Origin: a virus
Virus record (IMG/VR): IMGVR_UViG_3300028615_000077
Coordinates: 1-43,153 of that record
Length of the DNA: 43,153 bases
Reading direction: 5' to 3' (one strand)
Shown here: positions 1-30,075 of the stretch, in pieces
Position numbering within the stretch: the first letter of the stretch is position 1
Layout: every line of letters starts with the position of its first letter
Translations under genes and position numbers: made by a program
Notes under the pieces: generated by a model
The model's database searches: none
The model's input: the letters and a program-made list of their open reading frames with translations, nothing else
What the model was told of the DNA's origin: nothing

Positions 1-561
1 ACCCTCCCCCTCCGGGGAGATGACGTCGTGACCGTACCCTTCGCGGCCACGCAAATACTCGGCCACACGCCAGGTTGACATCCATGGCCTCTGGTACAAA
101 ACCCGCTCGCCCGGTTTCGGGGTCCAGGGCTTGAGCCGTGAAGTACGCACGAAGTAACCGCAGCCGCCGCCCAACGGCCCCGCCGACCAGCGCTCAAGAT
201 GCGGCTCCCAAAGACCTAGGCGCAATACTCCGTACTCCATGTGCCGCACGTAATCCCCCGGCTTGAACTCGGGCTTCGCCGCCGCCCCGCCCACGTGCAC
301 ATCGCGCTTGCCGAGCGCATCGATTCGCTTTTGCAAGCACGCCTCGCACGCGGTGCGTGGCAAAAGCACCGTTGCGCCGCAGTACTGACACGCGTATTCG
401 TTCGGAGGGCACGCGCAGCGCTGGTAACCACAATGCGTGCATGGCGCCACTTCGGGGGCCCGTAGATGCGGCGTAGCGGGCTGCATCGGCCCGCGCATGC
501 GTGGCTTGCCGTACAGCGGGGTGCGGCGGTTGCTTAGCGGGTATTTGGTGTAGCTAGGCAT
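1..561 (-). CDS. Partial zinc-ribbon-like protein in GC-rich DNA (3' end off the left edge)
   Basis: An open frame of at least 187 codons starts at the ATG at 561..559 and is still open at base 1. A good ribosome binding site, AAAGGAG, lies just upstream of the ATG. The protein has a Cys-rich segment at residues 41-75 (C41, C44, C49, C51, C58, C61, C72, C75), in which C58-x2-C61 and C72-x2-C75 look like a zinc ribbon. Two short related segments follow, one around KPGDYVRH and one around KPGERVLYQ, which may be small beta-barrel repeats. I do not recognise the family. The G+C content is about 65%, unlike everything to its right, so horizontal acquisition or a chimeric assembly are both possible. 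The reading frame is clear; the function is not. Confidence 0.7.
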   Translation of the reverse strand, partial: MPSYTKYPLSNRRTPLYGKPRMRGPMQPATPHLRAPEVAPCTHCGYQRCACPPNEYACQYCGATVLLPRTACEACLQKRIDALGKRDVHVGGAAAKPEFKPGDYVRHMEYGVLRLGLWEPHLERWSAGPLGGGCGYFVRTSRLKPWTPKPGERVLYQRPWMSTWRVAEYLRGREGYGHDVISPEGEG

Positions 562-637
562 TGTCACTCTCCTTTTGAAGCGGGCAGGGTCTTGCGAATT
601 TGTCTATTGTTTTATATATTTCTTTTAGGTGTTTCAT
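554..637 (-). pseudogene. Truncated family A paralog fused to GC-rich DNA
   Basis: The frame starts MKHLKEIYKTIDKF, which matches the N-terminal helix of the family A proteins next to it (MKYQNKIYEAIDKFSK). After about 14 residues the match ends abruptly and the frame reads into GC-rich sequence (ARPCPLQKESDNA), stopping at 556..554. The stop overlaps the start codon of the gene at 561. The break lies near base 597, exactly where base composition changes. The 5' end sits 6 bases after the preceding paralog, so this was a normal member of the array before its 3' part was replaced or lost. A 27-residue product is possible but it is read here as a remnant. Confidence 0.75.
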
Positions 638-643
638 AAGGTG

Positions 644-886
644 TTACTCTACATAAGTTGTAATAATATGTTTAACTTTGACAGAAATCTTTATATCTCC
701 CACGGAGACGCAACAATACGAATTACCAAATATACTAGGTAGAATATAATCATTAGTCGTTATACAGTCAACATAGACAACAGAAGCGCATTCTTTCTGG
801 TAATATATGTCTTCAACAGTTAAAAAAGTTTTTACTGCTTTAGAAACATGATCTACCGCTTCATAAATTTCTTTATCGTGTTTCAT
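644..886 (-). CDS. Family A small paralog (helix plus beta strands)
   Basis: This 80-residue protein starts MKHDKEIYEAVDHVSKAVKTFL, the amphipathic helix that defines family A, followed by strand-like segments (TVEDIYY, SVVYVDCI, ISVKVKHIITTYV). No catalytic motif, signal peptide or membrane segment is visible. It starts 6 bases after the stop of the preceding paralog and ends 6 bases before the next start, so it is one link in a co-transcribed minus-strand chain. The family is not one I can name. Small size, high copy number and rapid divergence would fit a phage host-takeover or anti-defence role, but that is inference. Confidence 0.75.
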   Translation of the reverse strand: MKHDKEIYEAVDHVSKAVKTFLTVEDIYYQKECASVVYVDCITTNDYILPSIFGNSYCCVSVGDIKISVKVKHIITTYVE

Positions 887-892
887 AGAATA

Positions 893-1141
893 TTACCACG
901 TGTAATAATTTGTACCTATACTCCAAGGAAATGAAAGAGATATATTACGAAAATGAAGATTTACATAATTTATAGTATAACGAGCTAATAGTCCTTTGGA
1001 TGCTATAAATCCCACGTATACAGACCAATTTGGCAGATTATAATAGATCTCTTCAATGATTAAAAAAGTCTTTAGTTCTTTAGATAAGTTATCTATTGCC
1101 TGGTATATTTCATATTCATATATTTTATTTTGATATTTCAT
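893..1141 (-). CDS. Family A small paralog
   Basis: The start at 1141 is chosen because its ATG overlaps the TGA of the upstream gene (ATGA) and gives the family-typical N-terminus MKYQNKIYEYEIYQAIDNL. A longer frame upstream is open but not needed. The helix carries a short internal duplication, KIYEYEIYQAID, instead of the usual KIYEAID. Strand-like segments follow (FLIIEEIYY, WSVYVGFIAS, LHFRNISLSF). The protein has 82 residues and no recognised function. The neighbours on both sides belong to the same family. Confidence 0.75.
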   Translation of the reverse strand: MKYQNKIYEYEIYQAIDNLSKELKTFLIIEEIYYNLPNWSVYVGFIASKGLLARYTINYVNLHFRNISLSFPWSIGTNYYTW

Positions 1142-1362
1142 ATTATTAGCTGACAATTATCCACAATATAAATAATGAAAGAGCCAAACCCATATCTGTG
1201 AGTATCATCAAGCGGGAGTGAAGAGCCTATATAAATCCATATTCCTGGTCTCCCAAAATTAGCATAATCATCCGTAAACTCAATTTCTAAGACTACGAAA
1301 CTCGTTTTATTCTTTTTAGAAAATTTGTCTATTGCTTCATATATTTTATTTTGATATTTCAT
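1138..1362 (-). CDS. Family A small paralog
   Basis: The start at 1362 is fixed by an ATGA overlap with the stop of the gene upstream and by the typical N-terminus MKYQNKIYEAIDKFSKKNK. Its own stop overlaps the next start in the same way. The first dozen residues are nearly identical to the gene at 1141 (MKYQNKIYE), pointing to recent duplication of at least the 5' part, while the C-terminal halves differ strongly. The protein has 74 residues. Strand-like parts are SFVVLEIEF, IWIYIGSSL and SFIIYIVDN. The function is unknown. Confidence 0.75.
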   Translation of the reverse strand: MKYQNKIYEAIDKFSKKNKTSFVVLEIEFTDDYANFGRPGIWIYIGSSLPLDDTHRYGFGSFIIYIVDNCQLII

Positions 1363-1601
1363 ATCCAGTCCTGGTAATAACCACAAGAAACTATAACACT
1401 CACAATAAAATATTCATGTTCATAGTTAAACTCAAAAGACCTGTAGTTTATAGGTGGGCGCAGGTCAATAAGTATGATTTTCTCATCACTAAACTGATCA
1501 CTTTCTCTATTACGGATTAATACTCTGACAACCGTTATAGACTGTTTAAGTTCTTTACTAACTTTGTCTATTGATTCATATACTGCATTTCGGTAGTTCA
1601 T
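1359..1601 (-). CDS. Family A small paralog
   Basis: An 80-residue protein beginning MNYRNAVYESIDKVSKELKQSI, the family A helix with its conserved Y-x-x-ID-x-x-SKEL pattern, followed by strands (TVVRVLI, KIILIDLRPP, EYFIVSVIVS). The stop overlaps the start of the next paralog as ATGA, indicating translational coupling. A plus-strand frame here is a shadow. No enzymatic residues are evident. Confidence 0.75.
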   Translation of the reverse strand: MNYRNAVYESIDKVSKELKQSITVVRVLIRNRESDQFSDEKIILIDLRPPINYRSFEFNYEHEYFIVSVIVSCGYYQDWI

Positions 1602-1617
1602 AAGATGTTACTTACAG

Positions 1618-1848
1618 CTAACAAAGCATGGGAGAATTATGGTAGTCTACCCAGTAGGAATAATTTACAATAACGTGGAACTTTTTTATCTGATATGAAT
1701 ACAACCTACCATCGGGCAAATCAGATGCTGCCTCTATCCATATAATTTTTGGATCGTCTGCATAATAAATGCGCATAATTAACAAAGAACCTGTAGTCTC
1801 TTTACTAGCGTTGTCTATTGCTTGGTAAATTATGTTTTTATGTTTCAT
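1618..1848 (-). CDS. Family A small paralog
   Basis: The ATG at 1848 gives MKHKNIIYQAIDNASKETTGSL, in register with other members; a TTG one codon upstream is an alternative. The protein has 76 residues. The strand segments LLIMRIYY, KIIWIEAAS and FHVIVNYSYWV follow the same order as in other copies. The IWIEAASDLPDGRLY stretch resembles IWIYIGSSLPLDDTHRY in the gene at 1362, so these two are probably close relatives. The function is unknown. Confidence 0.75.
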   Translation of the reverse strand: MKHKNIIYQAIDNASKETTGSLLIMRIYYADDPKIIWIEAASDLPDGRLYSYQIKKFHVIVNYSYWVDYHNSPMLC

Positions 1849-1889
1849 CAAAAAATCTCATCCTCGGATATCTTACATAAAGAAGTATC

Positions 1890-2075
1890 TTATATATTTA
1901 TAAGTACAGAACCTTTTTCGATTTTCCAGGCCCCTTCATAAAGATGTTCGGACCCTAAAGTAATAAAGATATGCTGGTGGTTATCCTGGACATAAATGTC
2001 TAATACTATAATGGAAGTTTGTTGTTTTTTACCTATACCATCTATAGCAGAGTATATTTCGTTTTTATACTTCAT
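1890..2075 (-). CDS. Family A small paralog
   Basis: The start at 2075 gives MKYKNEIYSAIDGIGKKQQTSI, the family-typical N-terminus. A TTG at 2114 would add 13 residues but also lies just after the stop of the broken copy upstream, so it cannot be excluded. The protein has 61 residues, shorter than most members. Strands IIVLDIYV and HIFITLGS are followed by a shortened C-terminal part (WKIEKGSVLINI). The function is unknown. Confidence 0.7.
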   Translation of the reverse strand: MKYKNEIYSAIDGIGKKQQTSIIVLDIYVQDNHQHIFITLGSEHLYEGAWKIEKGSVLINI

Positions 2076-2110
2076 CTTACTGGATAAGAGATAAATTTCA
2101 TTTGGAAGAG

Positions 2111-2374
2111 TCAATAATATTGTGTTATTGAACCTAAGTGATTCCTTACAATAGAGTAGCCACCTTCATTATCCCAAATCTCTACAACTACTGTAATATC
2201 CTCACAAAAATATGTTAAAGTATCCTGACCTAGTTTAGAAATATCATTTTTGTCTACGGCCACGTCAACATAACATCAGTTTATTGTAGGTATCTCTGTT
2301 ATCTGAATGGTGACTAAGGGAGCTGATAGACTCTGAGAGACTTGTTCTATGGCCCAGTATATGGATCTCTTCAT
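2111..2374 (-). pseudogene. Family A paralog interrupted by an in-frame TGA
   Basis: From the ATG at 2374 the frame reads MKRSIYWAIEQVSQSL (a family A helix) for 32 codons, meets TGA at 2278..2276, and then continues in the same frame for about 54 more codons (CYVDVAVDKNDISKL...) to a TGA at 2113..2111. The part after the stop aligns with the second strand of other copies (compare VYVDCITTND in the gene at 886). The gene is therefore complete except for one nonsense codon. Readthrough cannot be excluded, but other TGA codons in the window clearly act as stops, so a decaying copy is the simpler reading. Confidence 0.7.
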
Positions 2375-2417
2375 GGGGTCAGTGTATAGCAATCTGTGGC
2401 CTTGTGGAGCCCTTGGG

Positions 2418-2609
2418 TTAGTTCTCATAAATAGACATATAATAAATGGGTGAAGATGTACTTCTTTCTATAATAAAAGAGACACCTATGTCTTTATTTA
2501 TTGTTATGTTAGTAATAATAACAAAACATATACAGCCTGTAGTGAAATTTTCTTTAATATCACGAACAGACTTCTCAATTAGTCTATAAATTCTCTCAGA
2601 AGTCCCCAC
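2418..2609 (-). CDS. Family A small paralog, short (GTG start)
   Basis: The frame begins at GTG (2609..2607) with VGTSERIYRLIEKSVRDIKENF, a diverged form of the family A helix (IY-x-x-I-x-K-x-x-x-x-x-K). Strand-like segments CICFVIITNITI and GVSFIIERS follow. With 63 residues it is among the shortest members and may be C-terminally shortened. The assignment to the family rests on the helix pattern, length and location inside the array. The function is unknown. Confidence 0.6.
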   Translation of the reverse strand: MGTSERIYRLIEKSVRDIKENFTTGCICFVIITNITINKDIGVSFIIERSTSSPIYYMSIYEN

Positions 2610-2639
2610 TCAGTTATTATTACCATCTGAGAGACATTG

Positions 2640-2875
2640 TCAATGTGGTAGATAAACGGACCTTAGTTTTACTTTGATAAGTATTAATTGTTCTTTAGTT
2701 TTATATACAGTTAAATCCACGTCATATTCTGGGTATCTTATTTTTGTTTCCTCAAGTTCAATATGCCTATCCAAAAGGTTTTTAACATGAGCGTCAATAA
2801 CACTGTAAGTGTAGTCTGTTAATGGAGAATTGTATTTTATCAAACTGACCGGCGGCGAATGGGACTATACTTCAT
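2640..2875 (-). pseudogene. Family A paralog, probably frameshifted near its 5' end
   Basis: An open frame of 67 codons ends at 2640 and can start only at a TTG at 2843 (IKYNSPLTDYTYSVIDAHVKNLLDRHIELEE...). Just upstream an ATG at 2875 overlaps the stop of the preceding mini-gene as TAATG and starts MKYSPIRRRSV before stopping in another frame. Since MKY is the usual family start and TAATG coupling is the usual spacing here, the original gene probably began at 2875 and has since acquired a small indel. If the TTG is used, a 67-residue protein is still made. Confidence 0.55.
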
Positions 2876-2937
2876 TACTTTTTCACTTTTTTAGTGAACT
2901 TCTCTAATAACTCGTACACTTTATTGTCAATTATCAT
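2875..2937 (-). pseudogene. Truncated family A mini-gene (20 residues)
   Basis: The ATG at 2937 begins MIIDNKVYELLEKFTKKVKK and a TAA follows at 2877..2875. This is only the N-terminal helix of family A with none of the strand region. It overlaps the end of the upstream gene by 11 bases, and its stop overlaps the next ATG as TAATG, so ribosomes could still pass through it. It may be a remnant, or a helix-only peptide kept as a coupling element. Confidence 0.5.
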
Positions 2938-3244
2938 ACTTGAATTCTATTGTTGTGGAAGAGGAAGTTTCATAAGGCTTCACTTCCCACTGCTTTAAAT
3001 TAAGACTATAAAATACTATTGTGTTATTCATTGTATTTAGTAAAGCTGTAGTTAATTCTGTTTTTAAATAAGGATGTAGTTGAGCGGTGGGTATATATAA
3101 ATATATATCCATTAAAACCGTGTTTAAAATCCCCTGCGGGACTGGAGTAATAAAGACATAACAAAAAATACGGTAAATTTCTCTACGATATAATTCATGC
3201 TTAAGAAAAGTAATAAAATCTTCTATTTGCTCATAAACTTTCAT
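2927..3244 (-). CDS. Family A large paralog (105 residues)
   Basis: The start at 3244 is set by an ATGA overlap with the upstream stop and gives MKVYEQIEDFITFLKHELYRR, a diverged family A helix. Strands follow (IFCYVFITPV, LMDIYLYIP, NTIVFYSLNL), then a 30-residue C-terminal extension rich in Ser and Thr. At 105 residues it is longer than the typical 75-90. It aligns best with the split gene at 4103..3749 (compare LMDIYLYI with LISIELYI), suggesting a subfamily. The function is unknown. Confidence 0.7.
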   Translation of the reverse strand: MKVYEQIEDFITFLKHELYRREIYRIFCYVFITPVPQGILNTVLMDIYLYIPTAQLHPYLKTELTTALLNTMNNTIVFYSLNLKQWEVKPYETSSSTTIEFKYDN

Positions 3245-3513
3245 ACTTCTGGGTACCAAGAAGGATATTTGTTTTGAAGTCCTTCCATTACAGATCCAAT
3301 GTCTTTTTCATTCCATACCATTATAAAAACAATAATATCCCCATATAAATACTTGAAAGTATCCAGCTTTACATGCTTTGTGTTTACCACTACATCTATA
3401 TAAAAAATGTTATGGCTATTTCGAAAAAATGATATATTAAAAATAATAATTGAAGAGTCTAACTTAGTACTAACTCTATCAATAGCAGAGTAAATTTTAT
3501 TTATAGTGGACAT
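3241..3513 (-). CDS. Family A small paralog
   Basis: A 90-residue protein starting MSTINKIYSAIDRVSTKLDSSI with the canonical helix (KIYSAIDRVS). Strands SIIIFNISFF, IFYIDVVVN and DIIVFIMVW follow, then a short basic/aromatic tail. The stop overlaps the next start as ATGA. This is the last uninterrupted family A member before family B genes begin to alternate upstream. The function is unknown. Confidence 0.75.
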   Translation of the reverse strand: MSTINKIYSAIDRVSTKLDSSIIIFNISFFRNSHNIFYIDVVVNTKHVKLDTFKYLYGDIIVFIMVWNEKDIGSVMEGLQNKYPSWYPEV

Positions 3514-3543
3514 TCCGACACAAATTCAAGATAATTAGATGAG

Positions 3544-3771
3544 TCATATAGTAGTGGACTGTATTTCATATAAAGTAAAATGAGGGTGTGTTCTACATTC
3601 TTTACATGTGACATCCTGTATATATTCTAAAGAAGTCCAATGTTCATTCTCGTTTCGAAAGTTTTCCCATTCTTGACTAGACTCAACAATTAACCCACAT
3701 AAAGTTGTAATCTTCCCTTCATGGTATGGCGTCAAGTCTAAATGGATTTTATCTGGCGTCCAAACTGGCAT
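3544..3771 (-). CDS. Family B small zinc-binding paralog
   Basis: The start at 3771 gives MPVWTPDKIHLDLTPYHEGK; a longer frame upstream is open. The protein has 75 residues and shows the family B signature: H in KIHLDL, C in TLCGL, and C-x2-C in VTCKEC, followed by a shortened LYEIQ ending. The spacing H...CG...CxxC suggests one zinc ion bound by His and three Cys. Many small actinobacterial and phage proteins have a similar arrangement, mostly of unknown function. The start overlaps the upstream gene by about 20 bases. Confidence 0.7.
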   Translation of the reverse strand: MPVWTPDKIHLDLTPYHEGKITTLCGLIVESSQEWENFRNENEHWTSLEYIQDVTCKECRTHPHFTLYEIQSTTI

Positions 3772-4103
3772 ATTTAAAACCCCTAACTGACAAAGTATGT
3801 ACGTACACATTTGTAGTTGCGTTAGGAGAAATAATGGAACAAGTTATAATTATTCCATATAACTGTAATAAATTTTGATTGGTCAAAAACTGACCTATTT
3901 TATACCTATACCTAGAACTCAAATGTTTTTGAATATACAGTTCTATACTTATTAGTTTTACTGGTTCTTGACCCTCAAAAGTCGCGAAGAGCCCATAAAT
4001 ATCCGATACATCATCAAAAGTCATTATTTAAATACACTAAACCTCTGATATAATTGATACTATCATTTATAAGACTATAAACTTCTTTTTTAATTGAGTT
4101 CAT
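3749..4103 (-). pseudogene. Family A paralog split into two overlapping frames
   Basis: A 29-codon frame starts at 4103 (MNSIKKEVYSLINDSINYIRGL, stop ending at 4014) and a second frame of 91 codons starts at 4024 and ends at 3749 (DIYGLFATFEGQEPVKLISIELYI...). The first supplies the family A helix and the second the strand region that aligns with the gene at 3244. They overlap by 11 bases in different frames. The best explanation is one ancestral gene with a frameshift. Production of two separate peptides, with reinitiation at the second ATG, remains possible. The first ATG overlaps the upstream stop as TAATG. Confidence 0.6.
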
Positions 4104-4318
4104 TACAATCCGGCTTTATTTATTTCCCATAGTGGGTACAACTCTAAACACCGCTTACAGCTTATTTTTGATAAATGATATGGATATAGTTTTATGTCCT
4201 TAGCATCATAAGAAACATGAATGTACTCTGAAAATGACCGTGGTTTATCCCCACATAAATAACAAAAGTTGTCGAAATTAGTTATATGAATGATTTGTTT
4301 TACTAATGGAGTTTTCAT
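4103..4318 (-). CDS. Family B small zinc-binding paralog
   Basis: This 71-residue protein starts MKTPLVKQIIHITNFDNFCYLCG and ends with ISCKRCLELYPLWEINKAGL. The proposed zinc ligands are H11 of IIHI, the Cys of LCG and the C-x2-C pair. The conserved tail LELYPLWEI is nearly complete. The MKTP start is shared with an internal Met of the gene at 4891. Its TAA overlaps the ATG of the next mini-gene (TAATG). The exact function is unknown; a nucleic-acid or protein-binding zinc ribbon is a guess. Confidence 0.75.
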   Translation of the reverse strand: MKTPLVKQIIHITNFDNFCYLCGDKPRSFSEYIHVSYDAKDIKLYPYHLSKISCKRCLELYPLWEINKAGL

Positions 4319-4320
4319 TC

Positions 4321-4520
4321 TTATATAGTTTTCATACTATGTAAAACAGACAGTTCTAAACACCGTTCACAATCAATTAGTCTTTCATATTGTGTGTTTT
4401 TATAAGAGCCCCTAAGGACACACATAAGGTATAGTGATGAAATACTTCACCACAAATAGCTTTCACCATATATGTACCAGGTTCCGTGTCTTCAACAATG
4501 TGTATACATTCTTTTACCAC
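4321..4520 (-). pseudogene. Frameshifted family B paralog
   Basis: From a GTG at 4520 the frame reads VVKECIHIVEDTEPGTYMVK then AICGEVF and stops at 4379..4377. A different frame then continues with YERLIDCERCLELSVL to a TAA at 4323..4321. Together the two parts supply the family B features in order (CIHI, ICG, CERCLELS). A one-base frameshift around the run of A residues near the end of the first part has therefore split a once-intact copy. The GTG overlaps the upstream stop by 7 bases. Confidence 0.7.
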
Positions 4521-4891
4521 AGACTAGCCTCTTTAATCTCATACAAAGGCAATAGTTCCAAGCACCTATTACAATAATTCCAATGTTCTTCATAACCAAA
4601 TTTAATAGGTACACAAAAAATCTGTTGTGTTGAGTCCTCTAGGTCAGTCTCTAGTCCACAAAGAGTTGGTTGATTAGTCTTATATCTAAGATGTATAATA
4701 CTATTATTAAAACATTTTTTACAATTTGCTAATATTGCATATCTAGTATAACTGTTTTTTCTTTTCCAGTGACCGTATGAACTAAGGTAAACTTGTTGAT
4801 TACACTGAGTGATAATCAAAGCTGTGCTTTGTACTTCTCGTATGTCTTTAGGAGTTTTCATTTCCCGTACATAGCCTAGATGAGTGGTCAT
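4514..4891 (-). CDS. Family B paralog, longer, probably a fused or doubled unit
   Basis: At 125 residues this is the longest family B member. The C-terminal half has the full signature: SIIHLRYKTNQPTLCGLE, then NYCNRCLELLPLYEIKEASLW. The N-terminal half ends in ILANCKKC, which looks like the CxxC end of a degenerate first unit, with a lone Cys (ITQC) earlier. An ancient fusion of two adjacent family B genes would explain length and pattern. An internal Met (MKTPKDI) resembles the start of the gene at 4318. The start at 4891 lies 6 bases after the stop of the upstream gene. Confidence 0.75.
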   Translation of the reverse strand: MTTHLGYVREMKTPKDIREVQSTALIITQCNQQVYLSSYGHWKRKNSYTRYAILANCKKCFNNSIIHLRYKTNQPTLCGLETDLEDSTQQIFCVPIKFGYEEHWNYCNRCLELLPLYEIKEASLW

Positions 4892-4896
4892 AACTA

Positions 4897-5076
4897 TTAG
4901 TCTCTTATATATTTTCTTTTCTTTTTTTCTTTTTTATATTCTTCCTCTAATCTTTTTTCAATCTCTTGAGTATCTTTTTCTAGTTCATCTAAGATACATT
5001 TATTTTTATAACAAGGACCTCCCTCACTATGGTGGGTCCAACATTTTTCACAAAATACTCTTACACAGCCTTGCAT
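4897..5076 (-). CDS. Small Cys-rich protein with charged coiled-coil tail (59 residues)
   Basis: The ATG at 5076 follows the upstream stop by two bases, and the frame runs 59 codons to a TAA at 4899..4897. The N-terminal half has a Cys-rich knuckle, C-V-R-V-F-C-E-K-C-W-T-H-H followed by C-Y-K-N-K-C (Cys at 4, 9, 12, 22, 27). The rest is a highly charged helix rich in Glu and Lys (DELEKDTQEIEKRLEEEYKK). It lacks the family B tail, so it is treated as a separate small zinc-binding gene within the same operon. The function is unknown. Confidence 0.7.
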   Translation of the reverse strand: MQGCVRVFCEKCWTHHSEGGPCYKNKCILDELEKDTQEIEKRLEEEYKKEKKKRKYIRD

Positions 5077-5078
5077 AG

Positions 5079-5306
5079 TTATAGGTCCTTTAAACCAAAT
5101 TTTATCTCATACAAAGGTAATAACTCTAGGCATCTACTACAAGTTACCCCACTTTTCACATTTGTATTTTCGCAGACACCTTTTATCCAATAGCTACTAT
5201 CCTTAGATTCCCAAAATTCATCAGAATCAGTGTCTATGCCACACAATGTCATATTTCTATTACCTGAATCATTATAATATAGATCGATATGCATAGTTCT
5301 TGACAT
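5079..5306 (-). CDS. Family B small zinc-binding paralog
   Basis: The start at 5306 overlaps the upstream TAA as TAATG and gives MSRTMHIDLYYNDSGNRNMT then LCGIDTDSDEFW. The C-terminus is VTCSRCLELLPLYEIKFGL. Proposed ligands are His of MHID, Cys of LCG and the CxxC pair. An in-frame ATG 30 bases upstream would only re-read the end of the previous gene. The protein has 75 residues. Its C-terminal motif is almost identical to those of the genes at 5766 and 4891. Confidence 0.75.
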   Translation of the reverse strand: MSRTMHIDLYYNDSGNRNMTLCGIDTDSDEFWESKDSSYWIKGVCENTNVKSGVTCSRCLELLPLYEIKFGLKDL

Positions 5307-5554
5307 TAGTCTTTCAAGTTTTCTTGAATCTCCCATAGCGGTAACAAGTTTAAACAATCCTCACATGTTATATATTCTGTTGACGTAGTTGCAGAATGAC
5401 GAAAGCCTTTTTTATATTCTTCCAACGTATCACATTTATTCTTACATAAAAAATCAGGTTTTCTAATTCTAGGTTGTCGTAGCATTCCAAGAGGAGGATA
5501 CTTTGCAACATTAAAATGTATTATATCTATATAGATTTTATTTTTGTAGAACAT
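5306..5554 (-). CDS. Family B variant with altered first zinc half-site
   Basis: The start at 5554 overlaps the upstream stop as TAATG. The N-terminus MFYKNKIYIDIIHFNVAKYP resembles family A at its first residues (YKNKIY) and then has the family B IIH. The usual LCG is missing; instead FLCKNKC supplies two Cys. The end, ITCEDCLNLLPLWEIQENLKD, is standard. This could be a hybrid that took a family A 5' end by recombination, or chance resemblance. It has 82 residues. Confidence 0.7.
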   Translation of the reverse strand: MFYKNKIYIDIIHFNVAKYPPLGMLRQPRIRKPDFLCKNKCDTLEEYKKGFRHSATTSTEYITCEDCLNLLPLWEIQENLKD

Positions 5555-5766
5555 TACAATACCGATAATTGTATTTCATACAAAGGTAATAACTCCAAAC
5601 ACCGATTGCAAGTAATAGTATTTGAATCTTTATCTAACAATGCTGAGTTTAACGAGATGTATCCATTACCTTGTCTTTTCCATTTTCTAATTTTAAAAAA
5701 ACGTAACGATTCACCACATAACATATGAAAGTCTTTATTATTACTTTCTTTTAATATATGTATCAT
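5554..5766 (-). CDS. Family B small zinc-binding paralog
   Basis: The start at 5766 overlaps the upstream TGA as ATGA and gives MIHILKESNNKDFHMLCGES. The C-terminus is ITCNRCLELLPLYEIQLSVL. The full signature is present: His3, Cys of LCG, and C-x2-C followed by LELLPLYEI. The protein has 70 residues. The 3' end of the upstream gene and the 5' flank of the gene at 5306 share the sequence GGGAGATTCAAGAAA, because each upstream copy ends in WEIQE. Confidence 0.75.
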   Translation of the reverse strand: MIHILKESNNKDFHMLCGESLRFFKIRKWKRQGNGYISLNSALLDKDSNTITCNRCLELLPLYEIQLSVL

Positions 5767-5984
5767 TCTTTCAAGCTTTCTTGAATCTCCCATAAAGGTA
5801 ATAGCTCTAAGCACTGATTACAAGTAACAAAATCTTTTAAAAAGACAAAAACATGATATGGATGCTTCCCCGTATGCCCACATATAGCTTTTCTCCAATA
5901 GACAGGCGCACTAGTGTCACGAACTACAGTTTCGTAATCCAAAGCACAAAAATGACGAATTGTGGGATCAAACTGACTGGTCAT
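5763..5984 (-). CDS. Family B small zinc-binding paralog, first gene of the main operon
   Basis: The ATG at 5984 is preceded by GGAG at 10 bases, one of the few clear ribosome binding sites in the array, in keeping with its position as first gene after a 188-base gap. The protein has 73 residues. It shows IRHFCALDYE, then KAICGHTGKH, then VTCNQCLELLPLWEIQESL. The stop overlaps the next start as ATGA. The downstream chain, without gaps larger than about 40 bases, runs to about 554, so promoter activity for most of the array should lie just upstream of here. Confidence 0.75.
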   Translation of the reverse strand: MTSQFDPTIRHFCALDYETVVRDTSAPVYWRKAICGHTGKHPYHVFVFLKDFVTCNQCLELLPLWEIQESLKE

Positions 5985-6172
5985 GTCATTACAACTCCTA
6001 AGTTTTTTACCCCATGTATTTTAAACGTCCTAGAACGGTTTGTGTGACGAGTTTATAGGGTTGTGGTACCTAGGACATGTCTTGGTGTTTGAGAGCCTTA
6101 GAGAGCTATTTCGAGTTAATTTATTTAATCTTAATTCTTTGTTCTTATAATTAGATAAAAATTATTAAAAAT
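5985..6172 (-). promoter_or_regulatory. Gap upstream of the main minus-strand operon
   Basis: No frame of note crosses this 188-base gap. Near 6065-6085 it holds three small palindromes close together (GGTACC, CCTAGG, GACATGTC). On the minus strand two possible -10 boxes occur (TATAAA near 6055, TAAAAT near 6022) but neither has a good -35 partner. A promoter is expected here from the gene layout, but the sequence alone does not fix it. No hairpin terminator for the gene ending at 6173 was found. Confidence 0.3.
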
Positions 6173-6514
6173 TTAATCTTTAAGACCTAATTCTGCAATT
6201 TCTAATAACATATGTCTAGGAGCCATTTTTTGATAATACTTTGACTTTAAACACTTCTGACATGGACGGTAATCTGTAAATGTTTTTATAGAAGAAAGAG
6301 AATTTATTACTTTTTGAATGTCTTTTTCAAAACATACATGAATACCATTCCAATCAATTTGGAATAGGGCATCATCTAATTTGTTCGGAAGATTCTTAAG
6401 CTTAGACCCGCAAGCTGTTCGTGGATAAATTGTTCTGTTAGAATAATGTATAATTCTATCATACTGTATGACTCTATTATTATGTATAATTCTATTCCAG
6501 GACTTACGCATCAT
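6173..6514 (-). CDS. Diverged family B paralog
   Basis: This 113-residue protein begins MMRKSWNRIIHNNRVIQYDR and has a near repeat of its own start (RIIHNNRVIQYD, RIIHYSNRTIYP). The zinc signature is recognisable: IIHYSNRTIYPRTACGS, then YRPCQKCLKSKYY, and a late LLEIAELGL replacing LELLPLYEI. It stands alone between two gaps and has its own promoter facing that of the plus-strand gene at 6591. The gene starts about 8 bases after its proposed -10 box, so the mRNA may be nearly leaderless. The second ATG (6511) is an equally possible start. Confidence 0.7.
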   Translation of the reverse strand: MMRKSWNRIIHNNRVIQYDRIIHYSNRTIYPRTACGSKLKNLPNKLDDALFQIDWNGIHVCFEKDIQKVINSLSSIKTFTDYRPCQKCLKSKYYQKMAPRHMLLEIAELGLKD

Positions 6515-6590: not shown

Positions 6591-6857
6591 ATGTTACTTA
6601 GCCCCGGAAAAGTTCATGCATATGGACAACACTATTTTTCTATTATTGAAAATAGTTATTATACTAATATCCACATAAAAACACTATGTGGCTTACAAGA
6701 ATGTTTTCTAACTTCTATTAAAAATAAAACAGAAAATCCAAAAGAATTACAAATACCTACAAATTTTATAACCAAAGAACCTTCAAAAATAACATGTAAA
6801 CGTTGTAGGGGAACAAAAAAGTACTCATTATTTCTCTTATATTTCAGTAACTTATAA
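6591..6857 (+). CDS. Divergent family B zinc-binding paralog
   Basis: The only plus-strand member of the family has 88 residues. It shows NIHIKTLCGLQE, then KITCKRCRGTKKYSLFLLY, giving the His, CG and CxxC ligands in order, but the LELLPLYEI tail has diverged. No other start codon precedes the conserved part and no Shine-Dalgarno sequence lies before the ATG, in line with a leaderless transcript. It faces the diverged member at 6514 across a symmetric promoter region. Confidence 0.65.
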   Translation: MLLSPGKVHAYGQHYFSIIENSYYTNIHIKTLCGLQECFLTSIKNKTENPKELQIPTNFITKEPSKITCKRCRGTKKYSLFLLYFSNL

Positions 6858-7356: not shown

Positions 7357-7839
7357 ATGACTGAGTTTATTGTTGCTGTGTTTGTTTCCATTGCTTTTTG
7401 TTTGGGGTGTGTATCTGTAGCCTTTGCTATAGCCCGCAGGACTACAGAGGCGGTGGGTAAGCAATTCTTAGAAGAAATGCATAAAATAAAGATAGAAGGG
7501 CTTAAATCTGTTTTAGATCAATTTGAAGAAGAAAAGAAGAATATTAAAAAGTATGAAGAACAGTCTTTACAGGATCAAGCTAAAGTCTTAGATCAGCAAC
7601 TTAGAGAGGCTCAGAACCAGCTACAGCAGATAACTAACTATTTTTATGATTCGTTGAACGATAATGTGACTGCTACTCTTCTTGCTGCTGCATATAGGTT
7701 TGTAGGGACTAAGCTGCCCCCTAGGAATACTGAAGAATCAGATCTCATTGCTGCGGTTTTAAATCATGAGAAAGCTGGACATCCATATTTGTCTAAGAAA
7801 CCTAGTGTGTCTTTGCCTAATAATAATGGCATGAATTAA
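7357..7839 (+). CDS. Membrane-anchored coiled-coil protein
   Basis: The ATG at 7357 has a perfect AGGAGG 4 bases upstream; the GTG three bases earlier is too close to it. The 160-residue protein has one N-terminal hydrophobic helix (about residues 3-25, FIVAVFVSIAFCLGCVSVAF) and then a long charged helix, about residues 35-90, rich in Glu, Lys and Gln, that should form a coiled coil. The C-terminal 60 residues are less regular. It resembles anchored cytoplasmic or periplasmic helper proteins in shape only. It is the first gene of the plus-strand block, and its TAA overlaps the next ATG (TAATG). Confidence 0.8.
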   Translation: MTEFIVAVFVSIAFCLGCVSVAFAIARRTTEAVGKQFLEEMHKIKIEGLKSVLDQFEEEKKNIKKYEEQSLQDQAKVLDQQLREAQNQLQQITNYFYDSLNDNVTATLLAAAYRFVGTKLPPRNTEESDLIAAVLNHEKAGHPYLSKKPSVSLPNNNGMN

Positions 7840-8093
7840 TGGACTATTATCTTTTAGATAAATATTTGAAAATTGTTGGTCCCTATCTGGTTGATTGTTG
7901 TGACCCGGTTATAGTGGTCATAGGTTTTATAGATATTAAGTTGGGTTCCTCTAATGAGTTTATTGATGTAGTTTTTCAATTTTATAAAAAAAATTTTAAA
8001 GCGTGTGAGAAATTGGTTGAAATGTGTGGGGAAGAAAAAGGGTTTTATGTTTTGCCTAAGGTGACTTATGTTGATTTTATGGATGCCCAATGA
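7839..8093 (+). CDS. Small unknown protein, first of a coupled quartet
   Basis: The 84-residue protein starts at an ATG overlapping the upstream stop (TAATG). It has an N-terminal helix (YYLLDKYLKIVGPYLVD) followed by strands (PVIVVIGFIDIKLG, EFIDVVFQFYKK) and a short helical end. Both ends overlap neighbours, as with the next three genes. The helix-then-strands layout and size recall family A on the other strand, but no conserved residues prove a relationship. The function is unknown. Confidence 0.7.
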   Translation: MDYYLLDKYLKIVGPYLVDCCDPVIVVIGFIDIKLGSSNEFIDVVFQFYKKNFKACEKLVEMCGEEKGFYVLPKVTYVDFMDAQ

Positions 8094-8338
8094 ATTATGA
8101 ATTGGTGAATAAGTTTATTAAAGAATCTATGTTAATCTTACGTGGAGAGTGTTTATTTGTTACTATAGACAGGTTTTCGAGGAAAAATGATCTTATTCCG
8201 GTAATAAAGTTTCACATATCTCAGGATATACTTTGGTCTCCCACTTGGGATAAGGTTTTAACACTTTATAGTAGTTCTGATAAGTTCCGAAATTTTGTTC
8301 TGAGTTATTTTATTGAACCACACAGAATTTTTTATTGA
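8090..8338 (+). CDS. Small unknown protein, second of the quartet
   Basis: An 82-residue protein whose ATG overlaps the upstream TGA (ATGA). N-terminal helix NYELVNKFIKESMLILRG, then strands CLFVTIDRF and PVIKFHIS, then WDKVLTLYSSSDKFRNFVLSYFI. The element order is the same as in the neighbouring quartet members. No known motif is present. Confidence 0.7.
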   Translation: MNYELVNKFIKESMLILRGECLFVTIDRFSRKNDLIPVIKFHISQDILWSPTWDKVLTLYSSSDKFRNFVLSYFIEPHRIFY

Positions 8339-8668
8339 GTGGATATGAGTTTATTTATGTCTAAATCTTTAGATATATCTAAGTATATGTATGATTATTT
8401 ACAGGATATTATAGATGCAATGGTGGAGGTATATGGAGATGAATTAGAAAACTGGGTGTTTATAGACTATACTGATATTATTGGTCCTGGACCTCAAATT
8501 ACATTTTTATGTAGATTTGATAATTTAAACCTTCAGACTGAGAGTCTTGATTATGGTAAGATTTTAAATCTACTAAATGATATCAATTTGGCAATATTTC
8601 CTTTTTGTATTGGGTTTGTGTTCCTGAGTTCTCAGGATTATGGAAAAGGTCTGTATTTTTTTGAATGA
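8339..8668 (+). CDS. Small unknown protein, third of the quartet
   Basis: The frame begins at a GTG directly after the upstream TGA; an ATG at 8345 is the alternative and neither has a good ribosome binding site. The 109-residue protein (GTG start) has helix KSLDISKYMYDYLQDIIDAM followed by strand-like WVFIDYTDII and QITFLCRFDNL, then helix and strand. It is acidic overall. The stop overlaps the next start (ATGA). The function is unknown. Confidence 0.65.
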   Translation: MDMSLFMSKSLDISKYMYDYLQDIIDAMVEVYGDELENWVFIDYTDIIGPGPQITFLCRFDNLNLQTESLDYGKILNLLNDINLAIFPFCIGFVFLSSQDYGKGLYFFE

Positions 8669-9003
8669 GTCTTCCTAATCTTGTAGTTGAATCTATACAC
8701 AATGTACTATCTCAAGTGTTCAGTCAGTACGGGAAGCATTTGTACCCGGTGGCTATAGTTAGAAATTTGGGGTTTGTTAATATAAATCAAATAGGTGTGG
8801 TGTTAGAGATTGTATTTTACACCTCTCAGTGTTCTGCCGATGCTCATGATATGTTAAAAGATTTATATCGACAGGATATTACTCATCAGTACAATAAAGA
8901 CCTAACCCGTTTAGTGTCTCCTTATCTATTGACTGTTTTTTACAAATGCGTTGATCCTATATTGATTGATTCTAGCGGTTGTGTCATAATGTCTCAGGTG
9001 TGA
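8665..9003 (+). CDS. Small unknown protein, fourth of the quartet
   Basis: This 112-residue protein starts at an ATGA overlap. An N-terminal helix (LVVESIHNVLSQVFSQYG) leads into strands YPVAIVRNLGFV and GVVLEIVFYTS, a central helix (DAHDMLKDLYRQDI) and a final strand pair. The topology parallels the longer family A proteins. Its TGA overlaps the GTG start of the following lipoprotein gene. The function is unknown. Confidence 0.7.
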   Translation: MSLPNLVVESIHNVLSQVFSQYGKHLYPVAIVRNLGFVNINQIGVVLEIVFYTSQCSADAHDMLKDLYRQDITHQYNKDLTRLVSPYLLTVFYKCVDPILIDSSGCVIMSQV

Positions 9004-9617
9004 GGATCCTGTTTTTACTTTGTGTATTGTTCGGTATTTTTATAGGCTGTGGTTCATCTCAGTCTTGGAACGTGGATGTATCTAAAAAGAATTATTTAGG
9101 ATGTACTATTTTCTGGAAAGATACTAATTTTCCTATACGGGTTCTTCCTGGTCCAGATTTTGATGAGGCTGAAACAGACTTAGTTGAAGTGAGTCTGCAG
9201 CAATGGAATATTAGTACAGGTAGTTACGTTTTTAGTATAACTGATAAATTTGATCATAAACAAGCTACAATTGTTCTATCTCATCATGATTTACCTAAGA
9301 ATTTGATGGGGTACGCGGTGGCCGTACCTGAAAATAATTTACAAGGTCGCTTAGGGTCATTACAATATGGTTTAATTTTGTTGGATATGCCAGCAATTAA
9401 AGACTCTTATAGGTATGTGAAGACTTTAGTACATGAATTAGGGCATATCTTGGGATTTTCACATGATGAAGATGATTTGTCTATTATGTACAAAAATATA
9501 CATCCTAGAAAGCAAGAAATTTTAGAACATCATATAAGAACTATACATCTGATGCAGGGTGGTGTATTTAAAAAACCTTCTATGTTTGGTGATGTCCCCG
9601 CTTGTTTTTCGTTGTAG
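9000..9617 (+). CDS. Matrixin-like zinc metalloprotease, predicted lipoprotein
   Basis: The GTG at 9000 overlaps the upstream TGA (GTGA) and gives a lipoprotein signal peptide, MRILFLLCVLFGIFIGC, with the lipobox FIGC at Cys17. The mature part contains HELGHILGFSH (His145, Glu146, His149, His155) followed by SIMY, the Met-turn. This is the HExxHxxGxxH signature of metzincin proteases, closest to matrixins (M10-like). The 205-residue length fits a bare catalytic domain. It would sit on the outer leaflet of a membrane or be released on lysis. Possible roles are superinfection effects, host surface processing or virion entry; the sequence does not tell which. Confidence 0.85.
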   Translation: MRILFLLCVLFGIFIGCGSSQSWNVDVSKKNYLGCTIFWKDTNFPIRVLPGPDFDEAETDLVEVSLQQWNISTGSYVFSITDKFDHKQATIVLSHHDLPKNLMGYAVAVPENNLQGRLGSLQYGLILLDMPAIKDSYRYVKTLVHELGHILGFSHDEDDLSIMYKNIHPRKQEILEHHIRTIHLMQGGVFKKPSMFGDVPACFSL

Positions 9618-9661
9618 AGGTTCTTGCATATGAAATGAGGGGTGTTACATTAGAGGGACAT

Positions 9662-9734
9662 TCCAGTGTAGCTCAGTTGGTAGAGCGGGTGGCTGTTAAC
9701 CACTTGGTCGGAGGTTCGAGCCCTTCCGCTGGAG
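9662..9734 (+). tRNA. tRNA-Asn (anticodon GTT)
   Basis: A complete cloverleaf can be drawn. The acceptor stem is TCCAGTG with CGCTGGA, the D arm contains GCTCAGTTGGTAGAGC, the anticodon loop CTGTTAA carries GTT, and the T loop is TTCGAGC. The discriminator base is G, usual for Asn. The CCA end is not encoded. It lies between the metalloprotease gene and a HEAT-like gene, in the direction of transcription. Confidence 0.95.
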
Positions 9735-9761
9735 CTGCTAAAGTGTAGAGGAGGGGAAGTA

Positions 9762-10121
9762 ATGACTGAGGAACAACTAGATGCTTTGGCTATGGAAGAC
9801 CCTGAAACTCTTATTAATATGCTGGTTGATGGTAGTTTGAATACTAGTATGTTGTCTTTTGCTGCAGAGTTGGCAGGAAGAGAAATTGAGAAGGTAGAGT
9901 TTAGAGATAAGCTTGTTTCTAATCTTTTGTCTTTGTTACAGCATGAGTCTTCTTTGGTTCGAGAAGGGGCTGTGATGGGCTTGGATTACTTATATTATTA
10001 TTTTCCTAATGTGCAGAAAGAGTTGAAGCAGAGGATGGACCCAAAGGTTGAACCTAGTGAGGGTGTTCGAGATGCAGCTGAAGAAGCTGTGGATTTTTGG
10101 ACTGCTATGGGAGTTAAGTAA
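9762..10121 (+). CDS. Helical HEAT-like repeat protein
   Basis: The ATG follows GAGGAGGGG. The 119-residue acidic protein appears all-helical. The segment LLSLLQHESSLVREGAVMGLDYLYYYF resembles one HEAT/Armadillo repeat (a helix with the pattern L-x-x-x-x-x-x-V-R-x-x-A), and VRDAAEEAVDFW looks like a second. Such folds usually bind proteins. It lies between tRNA-Asn and a small unknown gene that begins one base after its stop. Confidence 0.75.
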   Translation: MTEEQLDALAMEDPETLINMLVDGSLNTSMLSFAAELAGREIEKVEFRDKLVSNLLSLLQHESSLVREGAVMGLDYLYYYFPNVQKELKQRMDPKVEPSEGVRDAAEEAVDFWTAMGVK

Positions 10122-10424
10122 ATGGATCGTTTACGTTATTTTTTAAAAGTAGCGCGGAATTATGGGTTGTTGAATGGCCGCATTAGCGTAGGGATGGATG
10201 ATGTTTTGCATGTAACTTACACTCGTGATTCGTTATATGCATTCTTTGATTTTGGGAAAAAAGGTAGTTTGACAATGACATTGTCCCAAGGAAATTCCAT
10301 GGATATGATTACTAGGCAAGTTCCTCCTGGAACTGAGAATGCGGCTCTTAAAGAAGCGGCGGAATTCTTTGACCAGTTGAATCAAGGTGGGTTGATCCCA
10401 CATTATGATCGTAGTACAGATTAA
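10122..10424 (+). CDS. Unknown small protein
   Basis: A 100-residue protein starting directly after the upstream TAA. An N-terminal helix (DRLRYFLKVARNYG) is followed by strands RISVGMDDVLHVTYT, SLYAFFDFG and SLTMTLSQG and a C-terminal helix (ALKEAAEFFDQLNQGG). No membrane segment or metal site is visible. Its TAA overlaps the next ATG (TAATG). Not recognised. Confidence 0.7.
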   Translation: MDRLRYFLKVARNYGLLNGRISVGMDDVLHVTYTRDSLYAFFDFGKKGSLTMTLSQGNSMDMITRQVPPGTENAALKEAAEFFDQLNQGGLIPHYDRSTD

Positions 10425-10738
10425 TGATTATGTTTGCATTTTATTTTTCGTTAGTTTCTCTAATAATTATGGTTTTAATGCGTTTGGCGTTAGAATTGAT
10501 GACTAAAGAAAAGTATATATCTGATCTTTTTAATAGGGTTTATCCACCAGAAACTATTGCAGAGGATATGGCTAATGGATTAGATGTTGTAAGCATAAAA
10601 CGTAGGATGTATGAAGATTTTGGTGAAAAGTTTGATCGAACTAAGGAGGACTTATCTAAGATTCTTAATTTGTGCCTTTTTGCTAGTTTTGCCTTTTGGG
10701 TTATTTCCTGTATTCTTCTTATGATTTACTTGTTATAA
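10424..10738 (+). CDS. Two-TM membrane protein, paralog of its neighbour
   Basis: The 104-residue protein has a hydrophobic helix at about residues 3-25 (FAFYFSLVSLIIMVLMRLAL), a soluble loop of about 50 residues with Glu, Asp and Lys, and a second helix near the end (LCLFASFAFWVISCILLMIY). The layout is the same as in the gene at 10750, so the pair probably arose by duplication. Phage holins can be this size, but the long soluble loop is atypical. The function is unknown. Confidence 0.75.
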   Translation: MIMFAFYFSLVSLIIMVLMRLALELMTKEKYISDLFNRVYPPETIAEDMANGLDVVSIKRRMYEDFGEKFDRTKEDLSKILNLCLFASFAFWVISCILLMIYLL

Positions 10739-10749
10739 AAATGTGAAAT

Positions 10750-11073
10750 ATGATGCTTTACTTTACATTTATTTTATCCTTAATAATGTTTGTTGTATGT
10801 TTAGTTCTTTATGCCGGAAGTAAACAATTGTTAAAGCAAGGTCCCACACAAGAAGAAATAAATAAACTTGTGGATGGTTGTTATTCATATGAGCAACGAG
10901 AAATAGACCTACAGAAGGGGTTGCCAGTTGACGAAAGAGTAAGAAGACTGGGAGAAAAGGCTCCTGATGTGTATATGAAAATGTATGCTAGTCTTAGTAT
11001 GTGGAGTGCGATTGGATTTTGTTTTTTTGGCGTGGTTTTACTTTCTTCTGGGTTGACCTTATTGTTATTTTAA
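10750..11073 (+). CDS. Two-TM membrane protein, paralog of the preceding gene
   Basis: A 107-residue protein with a first hydrophobic helix (LYFTFILSLIMFVVCLVLYAG), a charged loop of about 55 residues, and a second helix (AIGFCFFGVVLLSSGLTLLLF) at the C-terminus. The loop sequence differs from the neighbour (PTQEEINKLVDGCYSYEQ), but both carry an acidic-helical stretch of similar length. Either of two adjacent ATGs (10750, 10753) could be used. Confidence 0.75.
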   Translation: MMLYFTFILSLIMFVVCLVLYAGSKQLLKQGPTQEEINKLVDGCYSYEQREIDLQKGLPVDERVRRLGEKAPDVYMKMYASLSMWSAIGFCFFGVVLLSSGLTLLLF

Positions 11074-27502: not shown

Positions 27503-27791
27503 TTGGAATCCAAAGCCATTACGGCCAAAGGCAAAAGATGATTTATTTCCTATGGAGGAAAATGTTACAATCACTAAGGGAGCTTTGGAGCCTTTGCAAG
27601 CTCAACGACGTTTAGATGGGACACCACTAACTAGACATGCTCGTACTGCCTTGTATCCTAAGGGACCTGAGCTATACTTAGGTGAGGAGCATGTTAGTAA
27701 GGGGAGTCTAAATGCGAAGGACGAGAATGATAGTCCTCCTAAGTTAGATCCAGATGAAGTGGTTAAGGCGTTTCTGAGTATTAATGATTAA
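27495..27791 (+). CDS. Unknown small protein
   Basis: A 98-residue, mostly disordered-looking protein rich in Pro, Lys and Asp (NNWNPKPLRPKAKDDLFPME ... VSKGSLNAKDENDSPPKLD). It overlaps both neighbours by 8 bases. Possibly a short linker or accessory protein for the large gene that follows. Not recognised. Confidence 0.65.
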   Translation: MNNWNPKPLRPKAKDDLFPMEENVTITKGALEPLQAQRRLDGTPLTRHARTALYPKGPELYLGEEHVSKGSLNAKDENDSPPKLDPDEVVKAFLSIND

Positions 27792-30075
27792 TGATTTTAG
27801 TATCTCTGAATTTCGGCGTATACTCAAACTACATGAAGACTGGTTGCTTTATGTGTTTGTAGGGACAGATTTATTATCTCATCAAGATCTTTCTAATTTA
27901 TATTTATATGATAAGTTACCAATAGAGGGACATTTAAATCTAATAACTCAGTTTTATACTTTAGGTAAGTATAAGTCTCATTTGAAGACAGCGGATTATC
28001 AAAATCTCACTGGTATTCCTTTTATGGAACTGTCATCGGTGGAAAGAGAGTCTTTAATGGAATTAAAATTAAAGGCTTCTTTAGAGATTAGGTCTTTTAT
28101 ACAAATTTTATTAGATTATTTACAGCCTTATATATTGAAAAAGGATGTCGAGGGGTTACAGTATAAGTTAGATAATCTTAAAGCTTTGTTTAAAAAAGTT
28201 TATAAGTCTTTTGTGTTGGATTATCTTTATTCTGCTTTAAATACTGCTATGGTGGATACGGCTAGACAACATGAAGGTATTTATGTAGAGGGTTTAGAGT
28301 CTAGGTTTTTAGTAAAAGGTCAGTATACATCCAATGTGAAAACTGCTAGGGAATTATTAGATCTCTCGTTATCTGGGTTGTCGTTGTATTATTTACCACC
28401 TGGGACAGAGTGGCTAGACAATAAACTTGTTATTAATGATCAAACTAAGTTTACATCTTCTTTAATGAAGGCTGCTACTCCGAAACCTTCTCCAATTATT
28501 AAGCCTCCTGGCCCTCCTCAAGCTTTTAAGCCAGCAAGTCCACCTAGTATGCCGGGTGTGGCTGCTCCGGGTAATAATCCTGGTCCAGGTCGTCCACAGA
28601 ATCCATCAACTCAGTCTTCTACTGTACCGGCGATGGCAGATCCGAATGCACCTAGTCCTGGGGTTGAATATGACAAGTGGCTTGGTCCTAATGATCCTAA
28701 ACCTAAAGACATGACTGGATGGGAGCAAACTAGCACTGGAGGGTACAGGCATATTAAAGGATCAGGTGGGTTTTCGGCTCAGGGAGAGAATGAGCAGACT
28801 ATTGGGCAATATTTGAAGGAATGGAATGACCGACCAAAGAGTTCGGTTGAAGTCGCTTATTCTTTATCCCATGGTAGTATTGATAAAATGGCAGAGTTGT
28901 CTGATGATGAGGCCGGTGTTTATCAATCTTATAAAATTACAATTCAAGGCAATGGTCAAGGATTAATGAAGCCTAGATTTTCTGATTTGTCAGACTTTGA
29001 GAATCGTATTGGTAGTGGTTTGGGCTCTATTCCTTTGGGTAATGAACATAATAGGGAAGTAGCGGCCCACAAGTTGGATACACTATTAGGTGGGAATAAT
29101 ATTCCTGTGACAGTCACTAGATCGTTTGGAGGCGAGTCTCATTCTGTTCAGGAATGGCAAGAGAATCATACTATCCCCTACTTGTATTTAGGTGAGTCGT
29201 CTGAACAGAATGTGACAAAGGATTTGTTATCTAGGGTTCCGGAAAAATTTAAAGGGGTATTTGAGGAAAAGATCCATAACATGGTGGTCTCAGATATCAT
29301 TATGAATCATAATGATAGACATCATAATAATACGGTTATAAAACGGGATTCTAGCTCTTTTGCTGCGATTGATAATGCTTTTTCTTTTGGGATTGGTATG
29401 AAAGGAATTAAAAATGACTTTCATAAAGATCTTCATCAAATGGGAAAACCTGTTAAAATTCCTGCTGATATGAAGCATCGTTTGGAGAACACAACATTAG
29501 GGGATTTTAAAAGATCGCTGCAGGATCATTTGTCTGATTGGGAAATAGGACAGACTTTTCTCAGGTCTAGATATGTTTTGTATCTACAGAACAATGAGGG
29601 TCACTTGGATTATAATAAGTTTCTTCCTACAATTGACAAATTTGGGGAAGATAGTGAGATGCCAGGACTAGTACCTGCCTCTTCGCCTGGTGAGGGAGAA
29701 TATGGTAATTTTGATTTAGACTCTGCTTGGAAGGTTAATAATAGTTCTGAAAAGGGGTTAGAAGAGTTTCGTCGTAGGAAAGAGGAAAAAACACTACCTA
29801 ATGACTTGTTTAATTCCTGGGCTAAGCATTTTATTGGAGAAGCAAAAGCTAATGAGAATCATCCGGATCATCAAGCTGCGAAGGAATTAGATAAAATTGG
29901 GGTATTTATGGCCCCCGAAAGTGTGAAGAATCCGTTTGAGTATAGAAAGAATGGCCGACATAGGGAGTATGAGGAAACAATTGAAGCTAAACTTCCTTCT
30001 GCGAATGTTGGGCATAGGAAGCCTGTTTTGAACCCCAAGGCGTATACTAGTACGGTTAAGGTGGATAATGATTAG
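27784..30075 (+). CDS. Large head-region protein with kinase-like catalytic core
   Basis: A 763-residue protein in three parts. Residues 1-230 are helical. Residues 231-295 form a Pro-rich linker. From about 375 to 540 there is a kinase-like core: GLMKP (candidate ATP-binding Lys396), NREVAAHKLDTLLG (candidate Glu425 of the C helix), IHNMVVSDIIMNHNDRHHNN (catalytic loop with Asp511, His513 and Asn515/516) and AIDNAFSFG (metal-binding Asp530). The order K, E, DRHxxN, D is that of atypical kinases of the PI3/4-kinase and HipA type. The remainder is acidic and disordered. A phage kinase in the head-gene cluster could be packaged and injected; this is inference. Confidence 0.75.
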   Translation: MINDFSISEFRRILKLHEDWLLYVFVGTDLLSHQDLSNLYLYDKLPIEGHLNLITQFYTLGKYKSHLKTADYQNLTGIPFMELSSVERESLMELKLKASLEIRSFIQILLDYLQPYILKKDVEGLQYKLDNLKALFKKVYKSFVLDYLYSALNTAMVDTARQHEGIYVEGLESRFLVKGQYTSNVKTARELLDLSLSGLSLYYLPPGTEWLDNKLVINDQTKFTSSLMKAATPKPSPIIKPPGPPQAFKPASPPSMPGVAAPGNNPGPGRPQNPSTQSSTVPAMADPNAPSPGVEYDKWLGPNDPKPKDMTGWEQTSTGGYRHIKGSGGFSAQGENEQTIGQYLKEWNDRPKSSVEVAYSLSHGSIDKMAELSDDEAGVYQSYKITIQGNGQGLMKPRFSDLSDFENRIGSGLGSIPLGNEHNREVAAHKLDTLLGGNNIPVTVTRSFGGESHSVQEWQENHTIPYLYLGESSEQNVTKDLLSRVPEKFKGVFEEKIHNMVVSDIIMNHNDRHHNNTVIKRDSSSFAAIDNAFSFGIGMKGIKNDFHKDLHQMGKPVKIPADMKHRLENTTLGDFKRSLQDHLSDWEIGQTFLRSRYVLYLQNNEGHLDYNKFLPTIDKFGEDSEMPGLVPASSPGEGEYGNFDLDSAWKVNNSSEKGLEEFRRRKEEKTLPNDLFNSWAKHFIGEAKANENHPDHQAAKELDKIGVFMAPESVKNPFEYRKNGRHREYEETIEAKLPSANVGHRKPVLNPKAYTSTVKVDND

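Follow-up and report, generated by a model that had tools for sequence, protein, structure and literature searches.

The window analyzed here, that is, the whole 43,153-base viral record IMGVR_UViG_3300028615_000077 of the IMG/VR database, carries between positions 554 and 4103 of its minus strand a tandem array of small, fast-diverging genes, which we call family A. Membership is firm for about ten copies, and the array has up to 14 if the possible ones are counted; the products look like a single fold in which a fixed N-terminal helix is combined with a hypervariable sheet. We give an even chance to the hypothesis, drawn from sequence, that in this array an SPO1-like phage keeps a bank of early-acting small effectors, private to its lineage, for host takeover or counter-defence. 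The members of the run are as follows:

554..637, minus strand: A1, a copy of the N-terminal helix (21 bits, 0/1000 shuffles as good), broken at about 590 by a segment of high guanine-plus-cytosine (GC) content, where the GC level switches
644..886, minus strand: A2, intact, 80 residues (leave-one-out E 1e-11)
893..1141, minus strand: A3, intact, 82 residues (leave-one-out profile), with a recombinant 5' end
1138..1362, minus strand: A4, intact, 74 residues (leave-one-out profile), predicted by AlphaFold2 as one helix and four strands
1359..1601, minus strand: A5, intact, 80 residues (leave-one-out profile)
1618..1848, minus strand: A6, intact, 76 residues (leave-one-out profile)
1890..2075, minus strand: A7, intact, 61 residues (leave-one-out profile)
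2111..2374, minus strand: A8, with an in-frame TGA at about 2276-2278 that splits it into two halves sharing one frame (helix 0/1000, body 6/300 shuffles)
2418..2609, minus strand: A9, a possible copy with a GTG start, homology unsupported (helix 312/1000 shuffles)
2640..2843, minus strand: A10, a possible copy, homology unsupported (145/1000 shuffles)
2875..2937, minus strand: A11, a helix-only stub of 20 residues (9.7 bits, 0/1000 shuffles)
2927..3244, minus strand: A12, a possible member of 105 residues with a longer body (1/300 shuffles when more of the N-terminus is scored, 60/1000 for the helix by itself)
3241..3513, minus strand: A13, intact, 90 residues (leave-one-out profile), predicted by AlphaFold2 as helix, four strands and helix
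3544..3771, minus strand: a Cys-rich member of a second family, B, within the family A run (leave-one-out profile)
3749..4024, minus strand: A14, a small open reading frame (ORF) whose membership is unsupported (split-protein shuffle test)
4014..4103, minus strand: A15, a helix-like ORF of 29 residues, borderline (30/1000 shuffles)

The motif [IVT]Yxx[IV][DE] was found near an ORF start at 12 minus-strand sites between positions 591 and 4103, at one further site on the opposite strand and at none in the remaining 36 kilobases, as compared with a mean of 0.12 and a maximum of 2 in Markov shuffles. Leave-one-out profiles recovered the seven intact copies (A2-A7 and A13) with E-values from 2e-14 to 4e-8, and A8 at 6e-4, while scoring of the helix alone made A1 and A11 firm too; these are the ten firm copies, the helix scores of A9, A10, A12 and A15 being not firm. 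The initial annotation, which had counted about 13 copies, was therefore right about a co-directional minus-strand run with a shared start and somewhat high in its number. It had given the size range of 20 to 105 residues correctly; points to be corrected are the broken A1, the split A8 and the family B member lying within the run. The start-stop coupling that it described occurs as overlaps of 4 nucleotides at A3/A4, A4/A5 and A12/A13, and the other copies lie 6-43 nucleotides apart. Recoding of TGA as tryptophan was considered as an explanation for A8 and rejected, because TGA terminates several intact copies as well as six late genes.

The constancy of the helix and the variability of the rest, both claimed at the outset, were borne out when the two parts were scored separately. 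In the leave-one-out comparison, the first 24 residues alone reached 25-48 bits, and none of 300 shuffles did as well in any of the seven intact copies, whereas body-only scores were mostly at shuffle level (A2, A3 and A13), weak in A4 and A5, and clear only in A6 and A7; a body in common was seen only for A6, A7 and A8. Across the family alignment, the only invariant columns are M1, Y8 and D12. Only 63 of the 132 pairwise identical helix residues use the same codon. The identity thus appears to reflect selection acting on the peptide and not copying in the recent past, the helix peptide having been retained while synonymous sites changed. A trace of one recent exchange between copies is visible in A3 and A4, whose first 27 nucleotides are identical and after which A3 has a second start-like segment. 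Decay is represented by the nonsense codon of A8 and the stub A11. Together with the frame-disrupted family B copy listed below, these remnants would be expected if the array arose by near-neutral or selfish birth and death, i.e. by tandem duplication in a hypervariable region with most copies functionless and drifting. The bodies fit such drift as well, as they are as dissimilar as codon-shuffled ones: a codon-aligned body similarity that at first seemed significant was gone once the shuffled bodies were realigned. We nevertheless regard birth and death of this kind as unlikely, considering that (i) seven frames are intact and their helix peptide is strongly kept despite changed codons, (ii) the predicted folds are confident, and (iii) relatives have arrays of other families, which suggests that selection has acted repeatedly.

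The structure of A13 was predicted with AlphaFold2 from an alignment of ten rows as helix, four strands and helix (predicted local distance difference test [pLDDT] 83, predicted template modelling score [pTM] 0.69), and that of A4 from seven rows as a helix and four strands (pLDDT 85, pTM 0.74). Unrelated folds, which would have spoken against a single family, were thus not seen, and the agreement of the two models is supportive, not independent, as their alignments have rows in common. From these models, family A looks like one alpha-beta-beta-beta-beta fold. In a comparison with the PDB (VIA), the chains ranked first for both models had the nucleotidyltransferase fold, which is known from ANT(4'), CD-NTases and RsfS; the scores (A13, Z 6.3, root-mean-square deviation 3.4 over 85 residues; A4, Z 5.2, root-mean-square deviation 3.5 over 67 residues) are low and of a level also reached by unrelated models or chance arrangement, and we assigned no fold family. 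Unlike nucleotidyltransferases, family A lacks the catalytic G[GS]...[DE]x[DE] motif, no such conserved columns being present in its alignment, and Foldseek returned nothing at E <= 0.001 for the family A models. A helical wheel drawn by hand from the sequence has I7, I11, residue 14 and L18 on the side that is probably buried and, beside it, a second conserved stripe made up of Y8, D12 and S15. The helix also packs in the core of the predicted fold, and the stripe may dock a partner.

Two further explanations meet this structural evidence. In the first, the helix would be a capsid-targeting signal and the bodies injected counter-defence proteins, as for the T-even internal proteins, which have a constant N-terminal signal and diverse bodies and among which IPI* has sheets flanked by helices (PMC3012670). 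Family A resembles IPI, IPII and IPIII in its constant N-terminal element followed by highly diverse bodies of similar size, and the predicted helix, four strands and helix of A13 recall IPI*. However, the family A helix is confidently predicted within the fold and not as a separate leader, the alignment has no common cleavage-site motif after it (the specificity of the phage's own protease is not established), and the array belongs to an early-type region, with the head genes on the other strand; a T4-like internal protein set is thus quite unlikely in our judgment. In the second, the copies would be subunits of a hetero-oligomer or a dosage array, forming a mixed assembly through the helix instead of having separate targets. 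One constant element joined to one predicted fold is compatible with it, and so are the 4-nucleotide overlaps, through which some copies may be co-translated. The copies nevertheless vary widely in body and length, and the families that relatives carry in the region are different ones, so that we leave only a small probability to a mixed assembly.

Searches for relatives of family A left it without any known family, in line with the initial annotation. No matches above chance were obtained in PHROGs, Pfam, NCBIfam or PADLOC; the best E-values were 0.15 in a PDB sequence search and 7 in a phage tblastn, neither above chance. The family A profile had no match at E <= 1 in 47 related virus records, and a single-copy scan did not find relatives either. 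A DNA pattern of the family matched four copies in the window, nothing in IMG/VR and eight places in bacterial genomes; the latter were rejected as relatives, their ORFs failing the family A profile. No comparable arrays are described in the literature found, the coverage of which was partial.

The idea that the array acts in host takeover comes from its position. The record is complete as deposited, lacks end repeats and is most likely a genome fragment; the takeover module of SPO1-type phages has its place in the long terminal redundancy. It encodes a ribonucleotide reductase (RNR), a portal protein and two transfer RNAs (tRNAs), and its capsid protein is nearest to those of SPO1-type Herelleviridae (about 45% identity); by its sequence, the source is an uncultured, SPO1-like phage. 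The gene order of Bacillus phage Goe2 and Exiguobacterium phage vB_EalM-132 runs from a terminal module, the right part of which is encoded on the minus strand, through divergent small genes, tRNA-Asn, RNR, portal, prohead protease and scaffold to capsid. The order in the window agrees: minus-strand arrays, divergent plus-strand small genes, tRNA-Asn, RNR, portal, protease and capsid (the labels of protease, at 33623, and scaffold, at 34384, being taken from gene order). Judged by this order, the family A array is located where SPO1-like phages keep their minus-strand host-takeover block. The genes of the SPO1 module are mostly small and early; eight of them attenuate growth of the host, and the module has strong early promoters and ribosome-binding sites (PMC6873191).

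Next to family A lies a second tandem array, that of family B, whose Cys...CxxCLELLPL[YW]EI proteins are encoded on the same strand, one of them inside the family A run. Its sites are the following:

4103..6514, minus strand: the family B tandem array
4321-4520, minus strand: a family B copy split over two frames, as if frame-shifted
6591-6857, plus strand: a further family B site in the window

Family B proteins have an invariant Cys and a CxxC and probably bind metal; they also have a conserved CLELLPL[YW]EI end. Among relatives, defined as records with a similar ribonucleotide reductase, G001 has two family B runs (L097:1136-5287 and 9350-11000), and G004 (IMGVR_UViG_3300027917_000019) has yet another family, D, which occupies the region and strand of the window arrays (L080:3491-8097, minus strand). 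Judged from its sequence it is apparently all-helical, with an LVxE...LFD core; 14 copies were counted when searched pairwise and about 20 when counted from the alignment. A single-copy query with it found none in other records, and homology of A and D was not supported (hhalign probability 0.3%). The larger records G003, G012 and G018 had no array of such size in the same scan. Within the close clade, an array in this region is thus a recurrent trait, and its family differs from phage to phage. The same locus of G004 also encodes, at L080:8386-13853 on both strands, small proteins of which five have little else in common but end in E[GA][ED]W[SN]LL or a close variant, like a shared C-terminal tag.

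The hypothesis of an effector bank must be weighed against several points: (i) family A is carried by only one fragmentary record among those searched; (ii) neither family A nor family B has sequence similarity to the corresponding regions of Goe2 and vB_EalM-132; (iii) early-promoter-like sites of the type scanned for numbered 61 as compared with 47.6 +/- 8 expected, which is not clearly above chance; (iv) ribosome-binding (Shine-Dalgarno) sites in the array are weak, unlike those of SPO1; (v) as the broken copies show, the array is not maintained in all its parts; and (vi) the two structural models are not independent, as noted. The original proposal of an anti-defence or host-takeover bank draws its support from position, namely the SPO1-like gene order and the other arrays in two relatives.

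The course of events that we propose for an effector bank builds on observed steps (modularity, a common predicted fold, a recombination trace, decay and location), to which we add early expression, targets and docking by inference. An early effector gene would have been amplified in tandem under the pressure of host defence, and its copies would then have become different in sheet and loops, the parts that would contact rapidly changing targets in the host. The helix would have stayed fixed, as it packs the fold and may offer the Y8/D12/S15 stripe to a shared partner, e.g. for self-assembly or at one host hub. Some copies would have been exchanged by recombination with one another, and others lost by decay.

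The surroundings of the arrays gave further observations. The first 590 or so bases of the window have a GC content of about 66%, against about 30% in the array after that, and the piece 1-590 had no matches in phages, Pfam or related loci; the junction at about 590 is possibly a chimeric join. This piece has an open frame with Cys pairs on its minus strand. Past the family B array come a divergent AT-rich stretch, four plus-strand small genes, a matrixin-like metalloprotease, tRNA-Asn and RNR, of which two need a line of their own:

7839..9003, plus strand: C1-C4, four small genes divergent from the adjoining arrays, paralogy not supported
8979-9617, plus strand: the matrixin-like metalloprotease, which may have a lipoprotein-type leader at its N-terminus

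Homology of the C genes to family A was likewise unsupported when profile scores were compared with shuffles. A run of small genes also precedes the metalloprotease at L080:10996-12191 (plus strand), where they are paralogous, and in relatives too the metalloprotease adjoins the variable locus. An RNR frame of 2056 residues at L013:3694-9864 has several intein-like insertions, and a 763-residue protein encoded among the head genes of the window (27784-30075, plus strand) has a PI3/PI4-kinase-like match (Pfam E 1e-6).

More tentatively, and at rather less than an even chance, the takeover locus of this clade may be a diversity bank in which each lineage amplifies a private family of tiny proteins, holding one element constant and diversifying the rest by duplication, recombination and decay, which would yield many effectors with one docking mode. 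The constant elements would be the N-terminal helix in A, the LVxE...LFD core in D and the CxxCLELLPL[YW]EI end in B. Studies of the takeover and counter-defence genes of phages usually treat each as an orphan unrelated to the others; 10-20 diversified copies of a private family per phage would be a natural panel of candidate inhibitors for target mapping.

Among known systems, the SPO1-type takeover module resembles the family A array in gene-order position, in forming a minus-strand block and in clustering small genes and proteins. Unlike the array, the module genes of vB_EalM-132 and Goe2 contain no paralogous array in the same scan, and the strong early promoters of SPO1 were not seen in the promoter scan of the window. 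A precedent for the amplification itself is T4 tifA, a small counter-defence gene that was demonstrated to amplify in tandem when selected by defence (PMC9391042). The copies produced by this segmental amplification of tifA/dmd (a gene accordion) are recent and experimental, whereas those of family A are old and diverged, and we claim no homology; the likeness lies in the route to tandem arrays of small counter-defence genes (PMC9391042). A locus at which each phage had such a private family would suggest that amplification followed by diversification, so far a short-term response in T4, could persist as a long-term feature of a genome.
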